Assembly: GCF_000337375.1 (NCBI RefSeq)
Contig: NZ_AOJG01000006.1
Location: forward strand, 34,435-72,970
DNA from: Halorubrum lipolyticum DSM 21995
Lineage (GTDB): Archaea; Halobacteriota; Halobacteria; Halobacteriales; Haloferacaceae
Length of the DNA: 38,536 bases
Direction: 5' to 3'
The notes under the pieces are model-generated. The model made no database searches. It worked only from the letters and a program-made list of their open reading frames with translations, and was not told where the DNA came from. Positions 22,162-34,108 of this stretch are shown one piece after another. The position numbers and the translations under genes are program-made. Numbering within the stretch: the stretch's first letter is position 1; every line of letters starts with the position of its first letter.

Positions 22162-23487
22162 TTACGGCCGCGTCGCCCGCGCGAACCACGTCTCCGGGTT
22201 CTGCCGCTTGACGCGGAAACTCGGGAGCTCCTCGGCGTCGGCCAGACCGAGCAGGAACCCCCTGACCGGCGCGGGGTCGCGGTCGCTCACGATGAGACAC
22301 TCCTCGCCCGAGCCGAGGCCGCGGAACCGCGCTGCGACGCGCTCTTTGCGGGTCTCCGGGTCGAGTCCGCGCAGGTCGACGGCGTCTTCGGGCGGCTCGA
22401 CCGACCAGACCGCCTCGTAGCGCTCGTCGACGGCGGCGGCCAGTTCGTCTGCGTGTTCGGGGAGCGCGTCGGCCCTCGGCGCCGGCGTCGACTGCAGCTC
22501 CGGGTCGAACGGGAGCTCCGCGAGGACCGGCAGGTCGAGCGCCTCGATCGGATCGTCACCGCCGAAGAGGTCGTGGGGCGCGCCGCACTCGCCGCAGACG
22601 AACTCGCCCATGTTCGAGACGACGCCGAGGACGGGCACGTCGTTCCCCTCGAACAGCTCCAGCGCGCGCCCGGTGTCGGAGACCGCCGCGTGGAACGGCG
22701 TGGTGACGAGGACGACCCCGTCGACCGGCACCTCTTGGAGGGTCGTCAGCGCCACGTCGCCGGTCCCCGGCGGCATGTCGACGACGACGGTGTCCGGGTC
22801 GCTCCACGCGGTCGTCTCGAACAGGTCCGAGAGCGCGTCGTGCGCCATCGCGCCCCGCCACGCGAGCGGGCCGCCGTCCGAGAGCAGCGCCACGCTCATC
22901 ACCTCTAGCCCGCCGACGTCGACCGGGACGGGATTCCCCTCGTCGTCGCTGTAGACGGGGCCGCTCGCGCCGAGCACCTCCGGGACGTTCGGGCCGTAGA
23001 TGTCGGCGTCGAAGAGGCCGACAGAGGGTGACGCCCGACCGCCGCCCCGACGCGCCGCGAGCGCGCAGGCCAGCGTCGTCGCGACCGTCGTCTTCCCGAC
23101 GCCGCCCTTCGTGCTCGCGACCGCGATCACTCGGTCCGCGGTCTCGATCCCCGACGACCGCCCGTCGAGGTCCGGGCTGGGATCGGCCTGCTCGACGCGC
23201 GCGTTCGAGACGCCCGGCGCGTCGGAGGCCGCGCGCACCATGGCGGCCGACACGCGTTCGGCGGCGTCCCGCGGGAACTCCCGCAGGTCCGCGGTGACAG
23301 TCGCGGTCCCGTCCGCGACCGTCACGTCCTCGACGAGGCCGGCCTCGAACGCGCTCACGCCGGCGTCCGGGTCCCGGACCTCTCGGAGCGCGGCCTCCAC
23401 GGCGTCGGCGGGCGATTCCTGAGCGGGCGATTCGTCGGCGTCGGCTGCATCGTCGGCATCGTCGATTTCTGCGGTGGAATCTGTCAT
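22162..23487 (-). CDS. Mrp/NBP35 Fe-S carrier ATPase fused to a DUF2249 domain
   Basis: The 441-aa protein has three parts. An acidic N-terminus leads to a MIP18/DUF59-like domain (about 26-100). A deviant Walker A P-loop NTPase follows: STKGGVGKTT (125-134), VVVDMPPGTGD, and the CGEC pair at 298-301 that bridges a transferable 4Fe-4S cluster. Residues about 368-440 match DUF2249 (DLRGLDPETRKERV, CLIVSDRDPAPVRGF and a terminal Trp-containing strand). Mrp proteins deliver Fe-S clusters to apoenzymes. DUF2249 proteins are often found beside denitrification and nitrogen-oxide genes. As the last gene of the nitrate reductase operon it may mature NarG, NarH or NarB. The ATG at 23487 is chosen because the 36 upstream in-frame residues have no domain character. 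Confidence 0.85.
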   Translation of the reverse strand: MTDSTAEIDDADDAADADESPAQESPADAVEAALREVRDPDAGVSAFEAGLVEDVTVADGTATVTADLREFPRDAAERVSAAMVRAASDAPGVSNARVEQADPSPDLDGRSSGIETADRVIAVASTKGGVGKTTVATTLACALAARRGGGRASPSVGLFDADIYGPNVPEVLGASGPVYSDDEGNPVPVDVGGLEVMSVALLSDGGPLAWRGAMAHDALSDLFETTAWSDPDTVVVDMPPGTGDVALTTLQEVPVDGVVLVTTPFHAAVSDTGRALELFEGNDVPVLGVVSNMGEFVCGECGAPHDLFGGDDPIEALDLPVLAELPFDPELQSTPAPRADALPEHADELAAAVDERYEAVWSVEPPEDAVDLRGLDPETRKERVAARFRGLGSGEECLIVSDRDPAPVRGFLLGLADAEELPSFRVKRQNPETWFARATRP

Positions 23488-23524: not shown

Positions 23525-24361
23525 TCACAGGTCCGGCCGGCGGTTGAGCGCGCTCTCGCCGGGTAGGTCGGCGCTGTCGTTTTCGGTCCCGCCACTGAAC
23601 TGCCGCCGGAACTTCCCCGCGTCGGCGTCGAGCGCGCGGACGGCGGTGCTCCGCACGACCTTCGGCTGCGTCTCGTCGCTCGCGACCGCCTCGAGGCGGG
23701 ACGCGGCGCGGTCGTCGTCGACGCCGGCGAGCAGGTGGACCGCCCACTCCCGGAGCCGCTCGCTGTCCGCGTGCGACAGTTCCAGCAGGACGGGACACAG
23801 CGCCTCGCCGCGCAGCTTGAACAGCGAGACGGCCGCGTTCCTGACGACCGCGTGGTGGTCGTCGTCGAGCGCCGCCTCGATCGTCGCCGCGTGCTCGCTC
23901 CGGTCGATCCGGTCGAGCGCGACGACCGCCTCGGCGCGGACCCACGGGTCGGAGTCGTCGCACGCCGCGACCGCGGCCTCGCCCGCCCGCTCGCCGCCGA
24001 GCTGGCCGAGCGCCTCGACCGCGAACTGGCGCACGTCGGCGTCGCCGTCAGTGAGACCGCGTTCGGTCAGCGCGTCGAGAGCGGCCTCGGTCGGTCGCCC
24101 CTCGCCGAGCGCCAGCGCGGCCCGCCGGCGCGCGACGGGGTCGCCGTCGACGAGGTCCGCGATCTTCTCGGCAACGTCGGTCCCGCGGAGCGGCGCCGTG
24201 TCGGTCGCCTGTAGCTCTCGCGGGCTCGCGTCGCCGATCGTCACGTCGCGGCTCACCTCGATGTCCTCGAGCCCGTCCGGCTCCTCGCCGAACCCCGGGC
24301 TCTCCTCCGGGTGGACTCGGGGGTCAGTGGGTCCGTCGGTCGCCTCGTCCGGGTCTCTCAT
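23525..24361 (-). CDS. HEAT-repeat protein of the nar operon
   Basis: This 278-aa soluble protein has an acidic Pro/Glu N-terminus (1-60). From about 62 to 255 there are five to six HEAT-like repeats with pattern ARRRAALALGEG, VRQFAVEALGQLG, VRAEAVVALDRI, VRNAAVSLFKL and LREWAVHLLAGV. They resemble PBS-lyase-type HEAT proteins, which serve as scaffolds or cofactor-attachment chaperones. The gene overlaps the previous one by four bases (ATGA) and is 37 nt from the Mrp gene, so it belongs to the operon. A role in assembly or cofactor loading of the reductase complex is inference. Confidence 0.8.
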   Translation of the reverse strand: MRDPDEATDGPTDPRVHPEESPGFGEEPDGLEDIEVSRDVTIGDASPRELQATDTAPLRGTDVAEKIADLVDGDPVARRRAALALGEGRPTEAALDALTERGLTDGDADVRQFAVEALGQLGGERAGEAAVAACDDSDPWVRAEAVVALDRIDRSEHAATIEAALDDDHHAVVRNAAVSLFKLRGEALCPVLLELSHADSERLREWAVHLLAGVDDDRAASRLEAVASDETQPKVVRSTAVRALDADAGKFRRQFSGGTENDSADLPGESALNRRPDL

Positions 24362-25302
24362 CGGGCGCTCACCCCGCTAGCGCCCGGTGAATCCCTCGCG
24401 TCCGGCTCGTCTGGCTCGTCCGGCGCGCCGAAGAGCCCGTCGGCGTCGAGCGTCGCGAGCGCGGCGCCGAGACACACCGCGGTCGCGGCCCCCGGGGTCG
24501 CCGGGACCCCCGAGAGCAGCAGCAGGACCGCGCCGACCGCGAGCCACGCGTCGCGCTTGCGGACGCCGGCGACGGCGGCCGCGACCCCGCCGAACGCCGC
24601 GGTCGCGACGAGGACGTGCGGGCTCCCGACGACGGCGAACCCGACGAGCAGCGCGCCCCCGGTGACGTACGGCGCGGCGGCGCTGGCGCCGACGACGCCC
24701 ACGAACGCGGCCGCGCCGGCGACGAGCGCGACCGGGTCGCCCTCGGCCCGGACGGCGAGGAGGGTCACCCCCGCGAGGAAGGCGACGGATCCGGCCGCCC
24801 GGAAGGGAGATCCGACGATGCCCGCGGTCGCGGCGAGCGAGAGCCCGGCGGCCGCCGCGAACGCCAGCGCGACGACGCTGCGCCGGAGATCGACGTAGGC
24901 CGCCGGCGTGCCCAGCGCCCGGGCGAACGCGATCGCGGCGCCGGTCGGGACCGCGACCGCCGCGGCGACGGTCGCCCCGTCGGAGACCGTCGCGAGCACG
25001 CCGAACACGCCGGCGAACAGGAGGCCCACGCGAACGACGGGGCGGTCCGTCGAGAGCGCGACCGAAGCGAGCGCGACCCCGGCCGCGACCCCCGCGACGG
25101 TACTCACGGCGGGGACCGCTCCGGACGGGACTCCGGCCGGCTCGACCGGCGCGTTGTACAGCACGCGGACCGCAGTTGCGACGCCTACGGCGACGGCGGC
25201 GAGCAGCCCGATCGACCCCACTCGGCCGCCGAAGCGACCGGGGGAGCGCGGCGAACTCGCTCGCGCGCTCGCGTTTCGTGTCTGCGAACTCACGGGCGTC
25301 AC
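24358..25302 (-). CDS. Polytopic membrane protein of the nar operon
   Basis: This 314-aa protein is Ala/Val/Gly-rich with about nine to ten hydrophobic segments between residues 28 and 290, short loops, and a soluble acidic tail (APDEPDEPDARDSPGA). It starts with GTG, overlapping the narJ stop by four bases. I do not recognise a family and see no heme-ligand His pattern or transporter signature. Nitrate/nitrite carriers are MFS proteins with distinct NNP motifs, absent here. It may anchor, assemble or supply the complex. Confidence 0.7.
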   Translation of the reverse strand: MTPVSSQTRNASARASSPRSPGRFGGRVGSIGLLAAVAVGVATAVRVLYNAPVEPAGVPSGAVPAVSTVAGVAAGVALASVALSTDRPVVRVGLLFAGVFGVLATVSDGATVAAAVAVPTGAAIAFARALGTPAAYVDLRRSVVALAFAAAAGLSLAATAGIVGSPFRAAGSVAFLAGVTLLAVRAEGDPVALVAGAAAFVGVVGASAAAPYVTGGALLVGFAVVGSPHVLVATAAFGGVAAAVAGVRKRDAWLAVGAVLLLLSGVPATPGAATAVCLGAALATLDADGLFGAPDEPDEPDARDSPGASGVSAR

Positions 25303-26102
25303 GACGACGCACCTCCGACGCCGGCGTCGAGCCGGTCCGCGAGGTCGTCGACATCCGCGGCGACGAACGCGTCGAGGAAGCGTGCGAGGCGCCCGTAGAC
25401 GCTCGTTCCGGGTTCTTCGTCCAGAGCCGCTCGAAGCCCCGACGCCAGGACGGAGAAGTGGCGGTCGTGGAAGTCGAGCCGCGCGCGGTCGAGGTTCGCC
25501 GGATCGCCGGGGTCAACGCCGCTGTCCGGGGCGGAGTCGGCGGCGGCCAGCCGACAGAGGTACCCCGCGAACTCGAGCTCCAGCCGGACGTGGTCGTGGT
25601 GGCGGCGCTCCTCGCCGCCGATCTCGCATCCGAAGTGCTCGTACGCCCGGGCGAGGTCGAGGTTCACGTCGTTCCACGACACCTCCGACCGGTACGTCGA
25701 CTCGTACAGGGAGGCCGGCGGCCCCTGGTTCTCGACCGTCCCGTCGGTCCCGTCGATCACCTCGGAGTAGCCGACGACGAACAAGTCGTTGTACCGGGCG
25801 GCGAGCGTCTCCCGGTCGTCATCGACGGTCAGGTCCGGCGGGTCGACGTCGAGGCCGCTCTCCCCGACGTGCGTCGCCACCGCCTCGTCGAGCGAGCCGT
25901 CCGCGAACTCGTCGTAGACGCCCCGACTCGGCTCGGCGAACGCCGCCGCCGCGAGCGCGTAGACGTTCCCGCGGGCGGCGGTCGCCTCGTCGATCGCGTC
26001 GCTCGGGAGGCCCGCGTCGGGGCGCGGGTCGTCGCCGGGCCGCGCTCCGTCCCCTCCGGACTGCGTCTCGTCTCGCTCGGGCGTCGATTCCGACACGGTC
26101 AC
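25299..26102 (-). CDS. narJ: Nitrate reductase chaperone NarJ (TorD/DmsD family)
   Basis: This 267-aa all-helical chaperone would bind the NarG Tat signal or apo-NarG during molybdenum cofactor insertion. The family core is visible as LAARYNDLFVVGY, YESTYRSEV, LARAYEHFGCEIG, ERRHHDHVRLELEFAGYLCRLA and ARLDFHDRHFSVLASGL. The N-terminal 40 residues are an acidic disordered extension common in haloarchaea. It starts with GTG and its start overlaps the preceding stop by four bases. The usual bacterial partner NarI is missing and is replaced by the heme b protein encoded just upstream. Confidence 0.85.
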   Translation of the reverse strand: MTVSESTPERDETQSGGDGARPGDDPRPDAGLPSDAIDEATAARGNVYALAAAAFAEPSRGVYDEFADGSLDEAVATHVGESGLDVDPPDLTVDDDRETLAARYNDLFVVGYSEVIDGTDGTVENQGPPASLYESTYRSEVSWNDVNLDLARAYEHFGCEIGGEERRHHDHVRLELEFAGYLCRLAAADSAPDSGVDPGDPANLDRARLDFHDRHFSVLASGLRAALDEEPGTSVYGRLARFLDAFVAADVDDLADRLDAGVGGASS

Positions 26103-26977
26103 TCACCCCTCGTTCGACGGACGCCCTCGACGGTGACGAGCGTGGTGAACACGACGGCGGCACCGGCTATCGCCCACAGAACCGTCTCGTAGGGTGCCCC
26201 GCCGTCGTCCGGACCGAGCGAGAGGTAGTACCACTCGCTGGCCGCCTTCTGACCGGAGCGCTCGTCGTTCGAGCCCTCCCAGACCGCGAACGCGGCGTTC
26301 ACGTCCTCGCCGTCGTCGACGTCGGTCACGTTCGCGCGGTCGGACGCGAGCGACCGGGAGAACACTACGGCCCACCGGTCGCCGGTGTGGGTCGCAGTCG
26401 CCTCCACCGCCGACTCAGGGAGCCGCGTCGTGCTGCCGGCGCCCCCGGCGAGCAGCGACTCCGTCCCGTCGGCCCCGTTCCAGTACCAGACGTTCACCCG
26501 GTCGTCGGCTGACCCCATCGCGATCGGCGGCTGTTTCTCGGTCGAGACCGGAAGCTGGACCGCGGCGGCGTCGGCGAACGCGCGCAGCGAGTCGGTCGAC
26601 GTGTTCGCGGTCCCGTCGTCCCACGACAGCCGGAGGTAGAGCCGCTCGTCGGTCCGCGCGGCCGCGACGCCGGCTGAGTCGACGGTGGCGTCGGAGCCGC
26701 CCGGAACCGCCGCGCCGGAGCTGCTCAGCGGGACGCTCACGGTCTCGACCGACTCCCACGCGTCCCCGGTCGGCTCCGCGAGGTCGCCGGCGCCCGCCTG
26801 CCGCTCGACCGGGATCTCGTAGGCCGCGCGGGCGTCGACGAGCATCGGGAACGCCGCGGTCGCGAGCACGACGGCGAGCGCGATCGCGGCCGCCGCGGCG
26901 AGCTCCCGGGACCCGAGTCCGCCGCCGGCCTCCGCGTCGGACCGGTCAGCGTCGCCCCGGCCGGCGTCAGCCGTCAT
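26099..26977 (-). CDS. Heme b subunit of nitrate reductase (ethylbenzene dehydrogenase gamma type)
   Basis: This 292-aa exported protein is anchored by an N-terminal helix (about 25-45) and a C-terminal helix (262-285), with a beta-rich outside domain between them. The fold resembles the gamma subunit of ethylbenzene/DMS/selenate-type reductases: DAWESVETVSVPL, LYLRLSWDD, AVQLPV, NVWYWNGAD and FAVWEGSNDERSGQKAAS. Met154 (PPIAMGS) and Lys244 (GQKAAS) sit where those proteins ligate heme b. It corresponds to the unnamed orf7 of described haloarchaeal nar operons, as I recall. It would pass electrons to NarH outside the membrane. It overlaps narH by 11 bases. Confidence 0.8.
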   Translation of the reverse strand: MTADAGRGDADRSDAEAGGGLGSRELAAAAAIALAVVLATAAFPMLVDARAAYEIPVERQAGAGDLAEPTGDAWESVETVSVPLSSSGAAVPGGSDATVDSAGVAAARTDERLYLRLSWDDGTANTSTDSLRAFADAAAVQLPVSTEKQPPIAMGSADDRVNVWYWNGADGTESLLAGGAGSTTRLPESAVEATATHTGDRWAVVFSRSLASDRANVTDVDDGEDVNAAFAVWEGSNDERSGQKAASEWYYLSLGPDDGGAPYETVLWAIAGAAVVFTTLVTVEGVRRTRGE

Positions 26978-28061
26978 CGTCGAACACCTCCAGCCGGTAC
27001 TGGTCGTCGTTGTTTACGGTCGAGAGGATCTCCATGAGCTCGCTCTCCTCGCCGCGCTCGGCCTTCTCCCGCTCGCGGGTGATCGTGTTGAGCGCCGACT
27101 CGACCGCCGGGCCGAACAGCTCCTCCAGGTAGTTGCGCGGGATGCGGTTCGCGTCCACCGTCTCGCCGCTCTCCGAGGTCTGCGGCGGCGCGTACGGCGG
27201 GATGTAGTAGACGTTCGGCTCGGTCCGGTACTCGGGGTGGAGCCGCAGAGCGACCTCGTACTCGTTCACGAGCTTGTGGATCGGGCCCTCCTCGTCGTCG
27301 AGGAAGCCGACGTGCCGGAGCTGCGGCGGACAGTCCTCGGCGCAGGAGGGGGGTCGCACCTCGCCCTCGGGCCCCTCCCCCTCGATCCGGGGGTAACAGA
27401 AGATGCACTTCTCGCTGGTCTTCGTCTGCGCGTTGTAGAACACCTTCTTGTAGGGACACCCCTCGACGCAGTACCGGTAGCCGCGGCAGCGGTCCTGATC
27501 GACGAGGACGATCCCGTCCTCCTCGCGCTTGTAGATCGCGGAGCGTGGGCACGCCTCCACGCAGGAAGGGTGGGTGCAGTGGTTGCAGATCCGGGGGAGG
27601 TAGAAGTAGTACGAGTTCGGGTACTCGCCGGCCCCCTCGTCCTCGTCCCAGTTCGGTCCCCAGTCGGCGTTCTCCATTGGGCGGAGCGGCTCGTCGCTCC
27701 CCTCGTACATGATCGCCTCGTGATTGAACTCCCACGCGCGACCGTACTCCTCCTTCTCCGGGAGCTCGCCGGGCGTCCGCGATTGGCCGTCCTCGTCCCA
27801 GCCGCCGCCGAGCTCCTCCCAGTCGCGGGGGTAGCCGGCGCCGGGCTTCGTCTCGACGTTGTTCCAGTACATGTACTCGCGCCCGCCGGACTCGGTCCAG
27901 TTGGTCTTACACGCGATCGTGCAGGTCTGGCAGCCGATACACTTGTTGAGGTCCATCACCATCGCGATCTGGTGATCGACGCCCTCCGCGAGCGGAACGT
28001 CGCCGTCCTCGGTCTGGCGGGCGGTTTCGTCGGTCCGGCTGACCGTGTCGTCTGTACTCAT
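26967..28061 (-). CDS. narH: Respiratory nitrate reductase iron-sulfur subunit NarH
   Basis: This 364-aa electron-transfer subunit carries four ferredoxin-type clusters. The cysteine groups are CIGCQTC..C (41-51), CNHC..C..CP (159-171), CRGYRYC..C (192-202) with Tyr195 where bacterial NarH has Trp in place of a cysteine (the 3Fe-4S site), and CIFC (219-222) with CAEDC (240-244). The long YKREEDGIVLVDQDRCRG segment is diagnostic for NarH. No signal peptide is present, so it is likely exported bound to NarG. It overlaps narG by one base (TGATG). Confidence 0.95.
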   Translation of the reverse strand: MSTDDTVSRTDETARQTEDGDVPLAEGVDHQIAMVMDLNKCIGCQTCTIACKTNWTESGGREYMYWNNVETKPGAGYPRDWEELGGGWDEDGQSRTPGELPEKEEYGRAWEFNHEAIMYEGSDEPLRPMENADWGPNWDEDEGAGEYPNSYYFYLPRICNHCTHPSCVEACPRSAIYKREEDGIVLVDQDRCRGYRYCVEGCPYKKVFYNAQTKTSEKCIFCYPRIEGEGPEGEVRPPSCAEDCPPQLRHVGFLDDEEGPIHKLVNEYEVALRLHPEYRTEPNVYYIPPYAPPQTSESGETVDANRIPRNYLEELFGPAVESALNTITREREKAERGEESELMEILSTVNNDDQYRLEVFDDDG

Positions 28062-31000
28062 CAGTCGTCACCTCCGAGCAGGTCAGAGACGCGACCCAAC
28101 GCGCCGCGGGAGTCGGTCTCCGCGTCTCCGGCCGCCGGGTCGCCCGGTCCGGTCCCGTCGCCCCGTTCGAGACTAAGCCCGTCGCCCACCGATCTCGCGT
28201 CGTCGCCCGAGGCCGCCCCCTCTTCGACTTTCTCGACCTCGATCCGAACGTCGCTGTTCACGCCGGTCGGGCCCCAGTAGTTCGGGAAGAAGTGCAGGTG
28301 CTCGCCCGTGTCCTCGGGGTACTGGACGAGCTGCGTCGGCTTCATGTACATCGGCACGAGCGAGTTGAAGTTGTTGCGGTCGGGGTACTGGAACCGCTCC
28401 CAGCTGAAGAAGTGCCGGACCGTTCCGGGCTCCCCGCTCGGGTAGATCTTGGCCTGCACCTCGACGGAGTCGAGGTCGTTGTACACCCGAACGGTGTCGC
28501 CGTCCTCGATGTCTCGCACCTCCGCGTCCTCGGGGTTGAGATAGACGGTCGGCTCGCCGCGCTGCAGCCGGAGCATCTTGGTGCTGTCGCGCCACGTCGA
28601 GTGGATCGACCAGCGGCTGTGCGGCGTGTTGTACCCCAGCGGGTACTCCGACTTCTCCTGTAACACCGGCGCCTCCTTGTGGGTCGGGAGCTGCTCGTCG
28701 AGCTCTAAGAACCAGTCGTGGTCGATGTAGTACTGCTGGCGCCCCGTGAACGTCGGCCACGGGTTCTTGTCCTGCACGTAGTCCTTCCACGGCGTGTACG
28801 CCTCGCCCTCCTCGATGTCCGACGACCAGTGGTCCCCGGCCTCGAGGAGCCGTCTGGGCTGTTCGTCGACGTCGGCGAAGGTGATCCGCTCGTCGGTCCC
28901 CTCGGGGTTCGTCTCCTCGGAGTTCTCGAGGATGAACTCCGCGGCCGCCTCGTCCTCCGCCAGGGCGCCGGCCTCGTCGTCGAGCCAGTCGCGGACGTAG
29001 TCGTCGCGGACCGACCGGAGGTCGATCCGCCGGTCGAACTTCCGGTCGTCGACCGGTTCCGTGCCGCGCTCTTCGGCGAGCTCCTGGATCTTCGCGGCGA
29101 GCTCGCGGAAGATCTGCCAGTCGGTCTTCGACTCGCCCAGCGGCTCGACCGCCGGCGTGAACGGGTGCACGTACGAGTGCATGTCCGTCTCCGAGAGGTC
29201 GTGTTTCTCGTAGTGGCTCGCGGTCGGCAGGACGATGTCGCTGTTGAGCGCGGTCGAGTCCATCCGGAAGTTGATGTCGACGACGAGGTCGAGCTTCGGC
29301 CACAGCTCCTCCTCGACGGCGATGTTCCCCTTGGCTTGATTGAAGTAGTTCCCGCGCCAGACGAACATCACCCGCGGGTCCGGGCGGCCGCCGTCGTCGC
29401 GCTCGCTCGGGTACAGCGGCATCCACCCCTTATTGATCGACTCCCGGATCTTCGCCGCGGTGTCCGGGTCGGTGTTCTCTAAGATCCCGGCGTGGTAGTA
29501 CGTCCACAGCGTCGTCGGAACGCCCCGGACGCTCCCGGTCGGGAAGGAGAGCTTCTGCCACCCGTTGTACGTCCAGATCTTCTCCTGGCCGACGTAGTGG
29601 TCGAGGCCCGTCCCCTGGCGGCCGAGGTTCCCCGTGAGCGTGACGAGCAGCTGGATCGCGCGGTTGCCCAGGTCGTTGTGGTACCAGTCGTTGACCCCCT
29701 TGCCGTGGATGATCTTCGCGCGGTCGACCTCGGCGAACTCGCGGGCGATCGTCTGGTGCGTCTGCTCGCCGACGCCGGTGATCTCGTTGACCCGCTCGGG
29801 GGTGTACGCCGACAGCTCGTCGCGGAGGTTCAGCCACACGGAGCGCGTCTCGACCGCGCCGTCGGTCGTGTCGACCGCGCGCTCGACGGCGAGCTCCGGG
29901 TCGAAGTCGAGCTCGATGCTCACGGAGTCGTCGTACTGCCCGTCGCGCTCGCCGAGCGATCCGGGGGCCGGCCGGAGGGCCCCGTCGGCGTCCTGCATGA
30001 CGAACACCTTCTCCGGGCGGTCGGCGTCGACGTCGAGTCCGGACACCTCGCTCGCGCGGAGGAACTTGCCGGTGTCCTCGCGGACGAGCAGCGGCATGTC
30101 CGTCTGCTCTTTTAAATGCGCCTCGTCGTACAGCCCCTCGTCGACGATGGTGCGGGCCATCCCGAGCGCGAGCGCGGTGTCGCTGCCGGGCTCCGGACCG
30201 AGCCACTCGTCGCAGTGGATCGCCGTCTGGCTGTAGTCGGTGAAGATCCCGACGCGCTTGGCGCCGTCGTACCCCGCTTCGAGGAAGTACTTGGCGTCGG
30301 GGATCCGCGTGACGTTGATGTTCGAGCCCCACGCGATGATGTAGTCGGCGTTGTACCAGTCCGCGCTCTCGGCGTTATCGGTCTGGGTCCCCCACGTGAT
30401 CGGCTGGCCCGGCGGGAGGTCGGAGTACCAGTCGTAGAAGGAGTGGCTGACCCCGCCGAGGAGATTGATAAGCCGGCTCCCCGAGGCGAACGACACCGGG
30501 CTCATCGCCGGGATCGGCGTGAAGCCGCTGATCGCGTCGTACTCCTCGTCCTCGACGGCGTCGATGACCTCCTCGGCGATCTCCGTGAGCGCCTCGTCCC
30601 AGGAGATCCGCTCCCACTTCCCCTCCCCGCGCTCGCCGGTCCGGCGGAGCGGGTGCGTGACGCGCTGGTCGGCGTTCACGTAGTCGGTGAAACACGCCCC
30701 CTTCTGACACCCTCGCGGATTGGGGTCGGGGAGCGACTCGTCGAAGCGGGGGTAGTCGCCGGCCTGTTCCTCGCGCCACACCTGCCCGTTCCGGGTGTAC
30801 ACCTGCCACGAGCAGCTGCCCGTGCAGTTGACGCTGTGCGTCGAGCGGGCCTTGCCGTCCCAGTCCCACTCCTCGCGGTAGAGGTCCTCCCAGTCGCGGT
30901 ACGGGTAGTCGCCGATCGGGTCGTCGACGACCTCCAGCGTCGTCATCTCGGTGAGGTCCTGCGCGGAGCCCAACCCGGTGGCGCCGACGGCGGCCGCCGC

Positions 31001-31084
31001 CCCGACCCCCTTCAGGAAGTCGCGGCGCGCGGCGCCCGAGCCGTCGCGTGTCGATTCGTCCGAAGCGTCTGTCGTGTCAGTCAT
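28061..31084 (-). CDS. narG: Respiratory nitrate reductase catalytic subunit NarG (Tat-exported)
   Basis: This 1007-aa molybdopterin enzyme of the DMSO-reductase family reduces nitrate to nitrite. A twin-arginine signal (ARRDFLKGVGAAAAVGATG, about 19-37) directs it outside the membrane, unlike bacterial NarG. The FS0 cluster uses His83-x3-Cys87-x3-Cys91 and Cys126 (HSVNCTGSC and RGCQKGAC). The Mo-ligand region is YNADYIIAWGSNINVTRIPDA, with the Asp expected in NarG-type enzymes. Several cofactor-binding segments follow, such as RAKIIHGKGVNDWYHND and NIVLP-like NSDIVLPTASHYEKHD. The C-terminal beta-barrel is present and the tail is acidic. It overlaps orf4 by eight bases. Confidence 0.96.
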   Translation of the reverse strand: MTDTTDASDESTRDGSGAARRDFLKGVGAAAAVGATGLGSAQDLTEMTTLEVVDDPIGDYPYRDWEDLYREEWDWDGKARSTHSVNCTGSCSWQVYTRNGQVWREEQAGDYPRFDESLPDPNPRGCQKGACFTDYVNADQRVTHPLRRTGERGEGKWERISWDEALTEIAEEVIDAVEDEEYDAISGFTPIPAMSPVSFASGSRLINLLGGVSHSFYDWYSDLPPGQPITWGTQTDNAESADWYNADYIIAWGSNINVTRIPDAKYFLEAGYDGAKRVGIFTDYSQTAIHCDEWLGPEPGSDTALALGMARTIVDEGLYDEAHLKEQTDMPLLVREDTGKFLRASEVSGLDVDADRPEKVFVMQDADGALRPAPGSLGERDGQYDDSVSIELDFDPELAVERAVDTTDGAVETRSVWLNLRDELSAYTPERVNEITGVGEQTHQTIAREFAEVDRAKIIHGKGVNDWYHNDLGNRAIQLLVTLTGNLGRQGTGLDHYVGQEKIWTYNGWQKLSFPTGSVRGVPTTLWTYYHAGILENTDPDTAAKIRESINKGWMPLYPSERDDGGRPDPRVMFVWRGNYFNQAKGNIAVEEELWPKLDLVVDINFRMDSTALNSDIVLPTASHYEKHDLSETDMHSYVHPFTPAVEPLGESKTDWQIFRELAAKIQELAEERGTEPVDDRKFDRRIDLRSVRDDYVRDWLDDEAGALAEDEAAAEFILENSEETNPEGTDERITFADVDEQPRRLLEAGDHWSSDIEEGEAYTPWKDYVQDKNPWPTFTGRQQYYIDHDWFLELDEQLPTHKEAPVLQEKSEYPLGYNTPHSRWSIHSTWRDSTKMLRLQRGEPTVYLNPEDAEVRDIEDGDTVRVYNDLDSVEVQAKIYPSGEPGTVRHFFSWERFQYPDRNNFNSLVPMYMKPTQLVQYPEDTGEHLHFFPNYWGPTGVNSDVRIEVEKVEEGAASGDDARSVGDGLSLERGDGTGPGDPAAGDAETDSRGALGRVSDLLGGDD

Positions 31085-31277
31085 GTTTGTCGATGAGAAC
31101 GGTCGCGAGGCCGAGCGCGACGCCGAGCGCCGCGAGCGCGACGCCTTCGGTCGTGCCGCCGCCCGCGTCGAGTCCGGCGGCGATCAGCCCCACGCCGACC
31201 AGTTTCGTCGCCCGGTCCGCCCAGCGGTACCGGCGCGGCGACAGCTCGGCCAGCCGGAGTCCGCTCGACTCAGTCAT
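31077..31277 (-). CDS. Small membrane protein between narC and narG (orf4-like)
   Basis: This 66-aa protein has a basic start ([19 protein letters not shown]) and two hydrophobic segments (about 27-41 and 45-61), ending LIDKHD. It overlaps narC by eight bases and narG by eight bases, so it is firmly part of the operon. Haloarchaeal nar operons described earlier have an unnamed small gene at this place (orf4, as I recall). No function is known. It might stabilise the cytochrome b or link it to NarGH. Confidence 0.7.
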
Positions 31278-32778
31278 CGCCCGATCCCTCCGTCGGCGAC
31301 CGCGGTCCGTCGTCTCCCGCTATCGGCGGCTCCCCGCCGCTCGCCGAGGGCGGCTCCTCCTCCGACCCGTCCTCGAAGCCGCCGAGGACCGCGTAGGTGA
31401 GCGTGCCGGCCGCGGCGGGGACGAGCACGAGCGCCCCGATCAGGTAGGGTCGGAGCGCCGCCGTCGACGTGCCGAATATCCCGGCGACGATCACGTCCAT
31501 GCCGGCGATGGAGGCGACCATGACGAGCGTGACGCCGACGATACCGACCGCGGTCGGGAACGGCCTGTCGAGGTAGTTCCGCGTGAAGTGCTCCGGCTCC
31601 TCGGCGCGGTCGACGAACGGCCACACCGCCACGGCGACGAACACCAGGCTCGGGAGGAGCAGGCCGCCCACGAACTCCGAGCTGACGTGAACGCCGAGCA
31701 CGTCGAAGCTCAGCCACGACGGAGTGAGCTTCAGGAACCCGTACCCCCACATGAGGAACCAGTCCGGCATGACGAGCGACGGCGTCGACGCCGGGTCGTT
31801 CGGGCCGTACTCGGCGATGTTGTGGACGGGGAGCAGGCCGGCGAGCAGCGAGAGCACGGCCATCGTGAGGAAGAACACGACCGCGCTCACCGCGGTCTGA
31901 TTCGGGAACGCGGGGAGCCCGATCACGACGCTGTCGTCGTCGCGGTCGATCTGGGGCGCGCCGCCGTCGGTCCCCTCGGGGTCCCCGGTCGCCCCCGCGA
32001 TCCCCCCGTCTGCTCCCGCGGGATTCCCGCTCGCGTTCGCGGCGGCCACGTCCCCGTCGCGCTGCGCCTCGGTGTGTTTCTGCCGGACGAGGATGGCCAT
32101 GTGGACGGCGATGAGCCCCGCGATCGCGGCCGGGATGAGGAAGACGTGGAGGAAGAACAGCCGCGGAATCGTCGCGCTCGTCGGGAACTGACCGCCGAAG
32201 ACGACGCTCGCGAGCGGGTCGCCGACGATCGGGACCGAGGCGGCGACGTTGTAGCCGATGCCCACCGCCGTGCTCGCGAACTCGTCGTACGGGAGCGAGT
32301 AACCGGTGTACGCCGCGAACATCGCCAGCCCCGCGAGGGCGGTCCCGACGAGCCAGTTCGGCTCGCGCGGGTTGCGGTACGCCCCGGTGAAGAAGACGCG
32401 GAGCATGTGCAAGGCGATCGACGCGACGAACAGGTGCGCAGCCCAGTGATGCATGCGCCGCAGGAACATCCCGAACGGCACGTCGTAGGTGAGGTAGAGG
32501 ACGCTCGTGAACGCCGCCGGCAGCTCCTCGCCCTGGTACTGCGCGACGCTCCCGCCGTACTCCACGGCGGTCGTGCTCGGCTCGTAGAAGAACGCGAGGA
32601 ACGTCCCGGTCGCGACGAGGATGCCGAAGCAGAACAGCGCGACCTCGCCGAGGAGGAACGAGTCCTCCGCGGGGAACGCCTTCCCGAGGAAGTCGCTCCC
32701 GTCGTCGAGGTCGAGCCGGGAGTCGAGCCAGTCGTAGACGGACTCGGCCCGGTCGGTCGCGGCGTCGATCCGGGACAT
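31270..32778 (-). CDS. narC: Cytochrome b subunit NarC of the nitrate reductase operon
   Basis: This 502-aa cytochrome b of bc1/b6f type has about eight helices. Heme ligands fit His110/His124 in the second helix and His211/His226 in the fourth; the second pair has 14 residues between the His, as in cytochrome b6. The C-terminal half continues without a break into a subunit-IV-like region with [16 protein letters not shown], the counterpart of the PEWY quinol-site motif. A low-complexity Ala/Gly/Asp linker of about 45 residues (238-285) joins the halves. It would oxidise menaquinol and feed electrons to NarB. Its start overlaps the narB stop by one base. Confidence 0.9.
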
Positions 32779-33479
32779 CACTCCCCCCCGGGGCCGATCG
32801 GCCCCTGGAAGTCCCCGGTCGCGACGAGGTAGCCGTCGCCCGAGAGCGTGATCGGGAGCTGCGGCAGCGCCCGCGGCGCCGGCCCCCCGACGACCCGTCC
32901 GCCCGTCACCGGGTCGAACCGCCCTGAGTGACACGGGCAGACGAGCACGTCGCCGTCGCGGTCGGCGACCATGCAGCCGGCGTGGGTACACACCTTCGAG
33001 AACGCGGCGTACCCGCCGACGGTGTACTCGTCGCGCACCTCCTCGCCGTACGCCGACTCCTCGAAGCGCACGAGCAGCGTCGGTGCGTCCTCGATCCCCG
33101 GACGCGGCTCCGGGAAGACGGTGAGCTGTTCGCCGGGCGAGATGCGGTCCTCTGCGATTCGCTCGCCCGCGTCGTCGACGAGCGGGATCCCGTCCTCGTA
33201 CACCGGTCCCTGATACTTGCGGTCGAACACCTGCGTGAGCCCCGCGACGGGTGCGGCGAGGCTCCCGACCGCGGTAATCCCCCCGACCGTCGCGAGGACC
33301 TTCGCGTAGTCGCGTCGCTTGAGCTCGGCGCGGGCGTCCTTCCAGAACGGACGATAGATGCTCGGGTCGACGACGAGGCCGTCGTCGTTCTCCGGGCAGG
33401 CGTCGCACGGCTCGCGGTCGTCGGGGTGATCCTCGGCTCCGTCTCGGGCCGGTCGCGGGTCGGATGCGTCGTCTCCCAT
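32778..33479 (-). CDS. narB: Rieske iron-sulfur protein NarB
   Basis: This 233-aa protein has an N-terminal acidic region containing CDAC (25-28), a twin-arginine-like KRRDYAK and hydrophobic anchor (54-82), then the Rieske domain. Cluster ligands are Cys164 and His166 in CTHAGC, and Cys181 and His184 in [10 protein letters not shown]. Cys169 and Cys183 form the stabilising disulfide. It makes the quinol-oxidising partner of cytochrome b NarC and places electrons on the outer face. Start and stop each overlap neighbouring genes by one base. Confidence 0.92.
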
Positions 33480-34108
33480 CAGTGGTCCCTCCGTTCGGCG
33501 ACTTCCACGTGGGGCATGAACCACGCGTAGTACGACACGGTCGACCCCAGCAGCGACATGAACAGCCCGAAGGCGTACACGCCGAAGTACTGGGTCCGCG
33601 CCAGCGTGAGGTACTCGGCGGTGAGCAGCGCCGAGAAGACGATGGCGAGGACGGTGAGCCCGCCCATCGCCACGAGCCCCTCGATGGCGTCGCTCGCGTC
33701 GTGGTACTCGACGACCCACCGGTCCTCCGTCTCGAACCAGGGGAACGTCGCTCGGTTCGCTCCCTCCGGCGGCGGGGCGTCGACCCCGCCGCCGTCGGTG
33801 GCGGCCGCGTCGGGCGCCTCTCCCGGGCCGCCGCCGCTCGGGTCGGGGCGCGCGGCCCGGTTCATGAAGCGGTGGAAAAACGCCACGGCTCCCAGAAGCC
33901 CGAGCAGCGCGACCCAGACGATCACGCCGACCTGGCTCGGCGAGAGCTTGTTCGGCGCGTCCACGAATCCCTCAAGCGGTTGCATCTCGCTCACGCTCTG
34001 GTCGATCCTGACCTCCTCAGAGGGCGGCTCGCCGTGGAGTCCGACGTACCACGTCGGCAGCAGCACGGCGAGCACGATGAGGAGGACGGCGATCGTTCGT
34101 CGGTCCAT
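33479..34108 (-). CDS. First gene of the nar operon, membrane protein (narA-like)
   Basis: This 209-aa membrane protein has a signal-like N-terminal helix ([20 protein letters not shown]), a second helix at about 61-80, a Gly/Pro/Asp-rich linker (85-125) and two C-terminal helices (about 138-160 and 168-190), ending [14 protein letters not shown]. No heme or Fe-S motif is evident, although His residues at the membrane edges could bind heme. It occupies the first position of the operon, as narA does in other haloarchaea. The ATG at 34108 is chosen because it starts the hydrophobic segment. An in-frame ATG at 34267 would add 53 Arg-rich residues. Confidence 0.7.

Follow-up and report, generated by a model that had tools for sequence, protein, structure and literature searches.

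At the end of the nar operon of Halorubrum lipolyticum DSM 21995 lies a gene, here called mrpD, whose product joins a DUF59 domain, an Mrp-type ATPase and a DUF2249 domain in one chain. By their sequences, such fusions – the MrpD proteins – form one clade apart from ordinary Mrp, and as they are almost confined to the neighbourhood of nitrate-reductase-like enzymes, they are probably the private cofactor loaders of these enzymes. The version that we favour, on balance rather than with assurance, is that MrpD works in the cytoplasm as a maturation factor reserved for NarGH-type molybdoenzymes (type II DMSO-reductase family), into which it loads Fe-S clusters.

Within the window – the whole stretch of 38,536 nucleotides that was analysed – mrpD ends an intact same-strand nar run (Table 1), starting 37 bp past the gene for a HEAT-repeat protein, while the next gene beyond is convergent; the first-pass annotation had rightly placed the fusion at the operon end. 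This arrangement is not due to chance, because full-length relatives with 54–89% identity recur at the same position in dozens of nar operons. Earlier descriptions of the nar operon end at narJ (PMC2483277). The genes around MrpD are maturation genes: narJ, the HEAT gene and, adjoining MrpD in several loci, a gene for MobA or MobB. The published denitrification motif CGAAYATDKTYG has one-mismatch matches only in the window (five, against a shuffle mean of 1.1), none of them at the operon start.

Table 1. Genes of the nar run in their order, from orf209 to mrpD, followed by the domains and motifs of MrpD (positions in the window)
Feature	Position	Strand	Basis or remark
orf209, first operon gene	33479..34108	-	no family found
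narA, Rieske-type by position and homology	32778..33479	-	60-92% identity to operon homologues; Rieske annotation in Haloferax larsenii
narB, cytochrome b	31270..32781	-	Pfam Cytochrom_B_N_2 151.9 bits, scored on longer ORF 31270-33408
orf66, small ORF of operon	31077..31277	-	
narG, catalytic subunit, proposed client	28061..31084	-	TIGR03479 1281.5 bits
narH, iron-sulfur subunit, proposed client	26967..28061	-	TIGR03478 559.8 bits
narC, heme b gamma subunit	26099..26977	-	TIGR03477 207.4 bits
narJ, type II DMSO-reductase chaperone	25299..26102	-	TIGR03482 160.4 bits
orf287	24358..25221	-	no Pfam match; position conserved
HEAT-repeat protein, directly upstream of mrpD	23525..24361	-	Pfam HEAT_2 87.5 bits; same position in nar loci read
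mrpD, DUF59-Mrp-DUF2249 fusion, 441 aa	22162..23487	-	ATG at 23487
DUF59 / FeS_assembly_P domain, residues 28-97	23197..23406	-	Pfam PF01883 36.4 bits, cut-off 23.5
Mrp/NBP35 P-loop ATPase domain, residues 118-338	22474..23136	-	Pfam PF10609 (ParA/NUBPL-Mrp) 214 bits, cut-off 27.1
Walker A KGGVGKTT, residues 127-134	23086..23109	-	alignment
CGEC cluster motif, residues 298-301	22585..22596	-	alignment
DUF2249 domain, residues 370-439	22171..22380	-	Pfam PF10006 37.9 bits, cut-off 29.5

All three domains named in the first-pass annotation exceed their Pfam cut-offs, including the C-terminal one, for which a profile search of residues 368–441 had been proposed. The P-loop domain with its KGGVGK motif and the CxxC ligands place MrpD among the Mrp/NBP35 (ApbC–Nbp35) ATPases. 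It scores below the ApbC equivalog NF008669 (179 bits, cut-off 348) and the MrpORP family NF041136 (184.6 bits, cut-off 450), and a Pfam search does not find the DUF971 domain of HCF101 at its C-terminus. It has no DNA-binding or signalling domain. The Walker A motif aligns in every full-length Mrp protein compared, and its core is invariant in an alignment of 35 fusions of the nar type and type 2, as are the cysteines C298 and C301. The CxxC spacing is retained in all aligned nar-type fusions except one, which has CxC – a spacing also found in several type-2 proteins – and both cysteines are missing from two aligned type-3 proteins (L104 and L105); as far as these motifs tell, cluster carriage is therefore not universal in the MrpD clade.

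In an AlphaFold2 model of MrpD, the mean pLDDT is 85 and exceeds 90 in the DUF2249 part. Foldseek matches the Mrp part to ApbC (8zkc, E 7.6e-25) and Cfd1 (6g2g, E 4.9e-17), and its nearest folds also include the Mrp-like, ATPase-type HypB of Thermococcus (5aup, 5auq, 3vx3). Modelled separately, the DUF2249 part resembles TusA/SirA (Z 8.2–9.9, rmsd 2.2–2.6 over 68–74 residues): five of its top six structure matches are TusA/SirA-like proteins or the TusA-like part of a YeeE–YeeD fusion, and the sixth is HP1264. The likeness comes from structure comparison only, as the sequence profile of this part finds no significant solved structure. No cysteine is invariant or nearly so within the aligned DUF2249 domains, and the DUF2249 of MrpD is thus, in its model, a TusA/SirA-like fold that lacks the conserved cysteine. 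Sulfur transfer by a TusA-like domain was rejected for this reason.

Every one of the 194 haloarchaeal genomes in our survey has an Mrp match, and the fusion is found in only part of them, which rules out the identity of MrpD as the universal haloarchaeal Mrp – an outcome against which the first-pass annotation had asked that its proposal be checked. The ordinary Mrp encoded elsewhere in the source genome is 41% identical to MrpD over residues 22–333, where the alignment stops. Core-region sequence alone, without the DUF2249 columns, gives a tree in which a fully supported branch separates 17 ordinary Mrps from all 46 fusions, the tree being one of a quick method with SH-aLRT support only and some long branches. 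A contig scan with a single peptide pattern – fusions elsewhere are possible – found the fusion only in haloarchaea, the bacterial matches being stand-alone DUF2249 proteins. In the bacteria Sedimenticola and Ktedonosporobacter, a stand-alone DUF2249 gene has a stand-alone DUF59 gene as its neighbour (L193:2627-3243, L199, L192:2463-3219), which hints independently that these domains act jointly.

The distribution of MrpD follows that of a particular enzyme type. Of the 66 genomes that encode a NarGH-like molybdoenzyme, 61 have MrpD, as against one of the 128 that encode none (MrpD present 61 and 1, absent 5 and 127; Fisher p 3e-43); for nar and type 2 only, the corresponding counts are 44 and 2, 7 and 141 (p 1e-33), these p values serving only as a guide because the genomes are related. 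The pattern recurs inside genera, with both or neither present in 6 and 16 of 22 genomes of the source genus, and both in 7 of 14 of another (g23).

Three MrpD subgroups pair with three distinct groups of NarGH-like alpha subunits. In the nar group, whose alpha subunit was located with TIGR03479, MrpD lies within 10 kb of alpha in 35 of 43 loci (median 4.5 kb); two nar loci (G187 and G121) appear, from the gene pieces at contig ends, to be split there, and in G128 no MrpD start is called in the 0.5 kb between the HEAT gene and the contig end. MrpD adjoins alpha in 15 of 17 type-2 loci, and the remaining two also have it, as read directly in G146 and as inferred for G088 from a plasmid record of matching length, across the record start; in type 3, 16 of 18 MrpD genes adjoin alpha. 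A species can hold more than one pair, as Halostella pelagica does with type 1 (nar) and type 2. Ordinary Mrp was never found within 10 kb of a NarGH-like alpha (0 of 25 checked). Taken together, co-occurrence and neighbourhood back well the earlier proposal of an Fe-S delivery factor specialised for NarG and NarH, whose loading role itself is putative.

The second NarGH-like operon (L073:3480-12399 and, on a Halobaculum magnesiiphilum plasmid, L142) encodes an alpha subunit scoring about 420 bits to TIGR03479, a beta subunit, a TorD-type chaperone, a heme b subunit, a HEAT protein, a protein of about 210 residues and a terminal MrpD. The third enzyme, of about 1180 residues, is accompanied by a divergent MrpD (L133:7536-15012, L131, L132), and the C-terminus of type-3 MrpD aligns with DUF2249 (VDLRGLPP...) below Pfam detection. 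Neither enzyme reaches any curated equivalog score. The Rieske/cytochrome-b pair is absent from the type-2 and type-3 operons read, where MrpD stands beside NarGH-like subunits; this leaves NarB, which had also been suggested as a client, without support.

MrpD is not strictly required for nar, since five nar-bearing genomes lack it: four of one genus (G050, G089, G140, G145) and G001. The HEAT gene persists where MrpD is absent, and in two of the four loci of that genus, the two that were read, it is followed by an 83-residue gene and then a radical-SAM-like gene. The 83-residue protein, which belongs to no known family, stands after HEAT where MrpD would otherwise be (L074:16192-16443, L082:13455-13706). 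Remnants were also seen: a nar remnant with an N-truncated MrpD in G165 (L083:8500-10094), which is the single genome with MrpD and no NarGH-like enzyme, and an isolated C-terminal MrpD fragment in Halorubrum laminariae (L148).

Could MrpD answer to nitric oxide rather than to the enzyme? The first-pass annotation had observed that DUF2249 is otherwise found near nitrogen-oxide genes – which is true generally (PMC11218638, PMC6282519), although the fusion also accompanies the two other NarGH-like enzymes – and had offered sensing or repair of nitric-oxide damage as a role; haloarchaea, the source genome included, do have DUF2249 genes close to nirK and nor (PMC11218638). With the copper nitrite reductase NirK (TIGR02376) as a marker of NO production, MrpD was found in one of 49 genomes (G165) that have NirK and no NarGH-like enzyme, and in 11 of 12 with the converse combination. 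MrpD thus follows NarGH-like enzymes, not NirK or NO, which argues against a protein that senses or repairs NO damage to Fe-S clusters and, together with the change from histidine to arginine in the DUF2249 of nar-type fusions, makes that role very improbable. This histidine, in the NDHDP motif of stand-alone DUF2249 proteins of the DrpA kind, is replaced in SDRDP or SDRNP, whereas some type-2 fusions keep NDHDP. The same loss, also remarked on for E6P09_17415 of Haloferax mediterranei (PMC11218638), weighs against a reading in which MrpD regulates nitrate respiration or acts as its sensor, with DUF2249 sensing nitrate as proposed for Thermus DrpA and DrpB; these do change nar expression (PMC6282519), and MrpD does sit within the nar operon, but its lack of a DNA-binding or signalling domain and its presence beside two enzymes outside the nar group leave such a role improbable.

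It is rather more conceivable, if still unlikely, that MrpD serves NarGH-type enzymes with something other than Fe-S clusters, be it a different metal or an ATP-driven role in inserting Moco or heme. The Thermococcus HypB among its nearest folds is, by the title of its source, concerned with nickel insertion; MobA and MobB genes are neighbours, and the two type-3 members have lost CxxC. Yet the nar group retains CxxC, the partner domain DUF59 is one of Fe-S assembly, and these genomes already have, in their ordinary Mrp, a protein with the architecture of an Fe-S carrier. That MrpD is simply a duplicated general Mrp travelling with nar operons, with no specific function, would fit the movement of these operons on megaplasmids and the lineages without MrpD; this is hard to credit, since a single deep clade shows parallel pairings with three enzymes and since in G165 MrpD is decaying together with its operon, both of which point to linked function.

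Returning to MrpD as an Fe-S loader, its proposed action can be set out as follows. Proteins of the Mrp/NBP35 family are Fe-S cluster carriers, and two of them, Ind1 and HCF101, are dedicated to particular clients (PMC6345978, PMC7980591). Haloarchaeal NarG is exported by Tat (PMC2483277), and because Tat moves folded proteins, cluster loading has to take place in the cytoplasm (PMC2483277, PMC10609526). FS0 enters NarG before Moco with the help of NarJ (PMC10609526). In an MrpD dimer, the two CxxC pairs, one from each subunit, would hold a [4Fe-4S] cluster between them. Through DUF59 and ATP turnover, MrpD would hand clusters to apo-NarG (FS0), apo-NarH or both, working with NarJ – which would keep the apoenzyme open during the transfer, ahead of Moco insertion and Tat export – and with the HEAT protein. 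Cluster transfer and NarGH binding are what we infer; that the client, NarJ or the HEAT protein may dock on DUF2249 is a guess from the modelled fold and the position of this domain. Ordinary Mrp would serve the rest of the cell, and could stand in where lineages lack MrpD.

The eukaryotic CIA targeting complex combines Nbp35/Cfd1 with CIA2, a DUF59 protein, and MMS19, a HEAT-repeat protein. An operon that sets a HEAT-repeat protein beside a DUF59–Mrp protein recalls this complex by analogy only, and the likeness is limited, HEAT repeats being generic and the HEAT gene persisting in loci without MrpD. A bolder scheme can be drawn, though we think it unlikely: MrpD and the HEAT protein may together make up a small Fe-S targeting machine of archaea, a parallel to the CIA targeting complex, with DUF2249 for client recognition; duplication of the machine may have yielded a private loader for each NarGH-like molybdoenzyme; and DUF2249 proteins may generally act in metalloenzyme maturation, not in nitrate sensing.

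Several known systems share parts of this plan. The chloroplast protein HCF101 and bacterial FSCA–ParA–DUF971 proteins likewise consist of DUF59, an Mrp ATPase and a small C-terminal domain, and HCF101-type proteins, like the proposed MrpD, are dedicated to particular Fe-S clients, for example photosystem I (PMC7980591); their C-terminal domain, however, is DUF971 (often with CxCxxC) rather than DUF2249, and lineages and clients differ. Ind1/NUBPL, an Mrp-family ATPase for one respiratory complex, has a distribution matching that complex – Complex I – and no DUF59 or extra C-terminal domain is described for it in PMC7980591. MrpORP, which binds and transfers Fe-S clusters, is an Mrp ATPase with an added C-terminal domain (PMC6345978), in its case a Di-Nase rather than DUF2249. 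ApbC and ordinary haloarchaeal Mrp share with MrpD the Walker A, the CxxC and an N-terminal DUF59-like region, but lack DUF2249. Thermus DrpA and DrpB are, like MrpD, DUF2249 proteins encoded beside a nar operon, and on their loss NarG is made but is little active; unlike MrpD, they have no Mrp domain and are proposed nitrate sensors, DrpA being periplasmic (PMC6282519).

The fusion architecture and the protein itself are already known, because E6P09_17415 of Haloferax mediterranei – a P-loop Fe-S carrier with DUF2249, encoded in the nar operon and induced in denitrification (log2FC 3.60) – has been described by authors who also suggested a gene fusion (PMC11218638). To judge from the published description, it is probably the MrpD orthologue. 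It was counted there among four induced DUF2249 genes and considered a possible sensor, with no survey, paralogues or maturation model, and the literature searched holds nothing else on the HEAT or MrpD genes of the operon. New, in that no description was found in the same literature, are the MrpD clade, the match of its three subgroups to three NarGH-like enzymes, and its separation from NO metabolism.

The survey points to two further NarGH-like respiratory enzymes outside the nar group, and since three Mrp paralogues each pair with one of three enzymes within one class of organisms, the pairing is directly testable by genetics. If the proposal is true, MrpD would join Ind1 and HCF101 as a third kind of client-dedicated Mrp, and DUF2249, on which hardly anything has been published, would gain a testable role.
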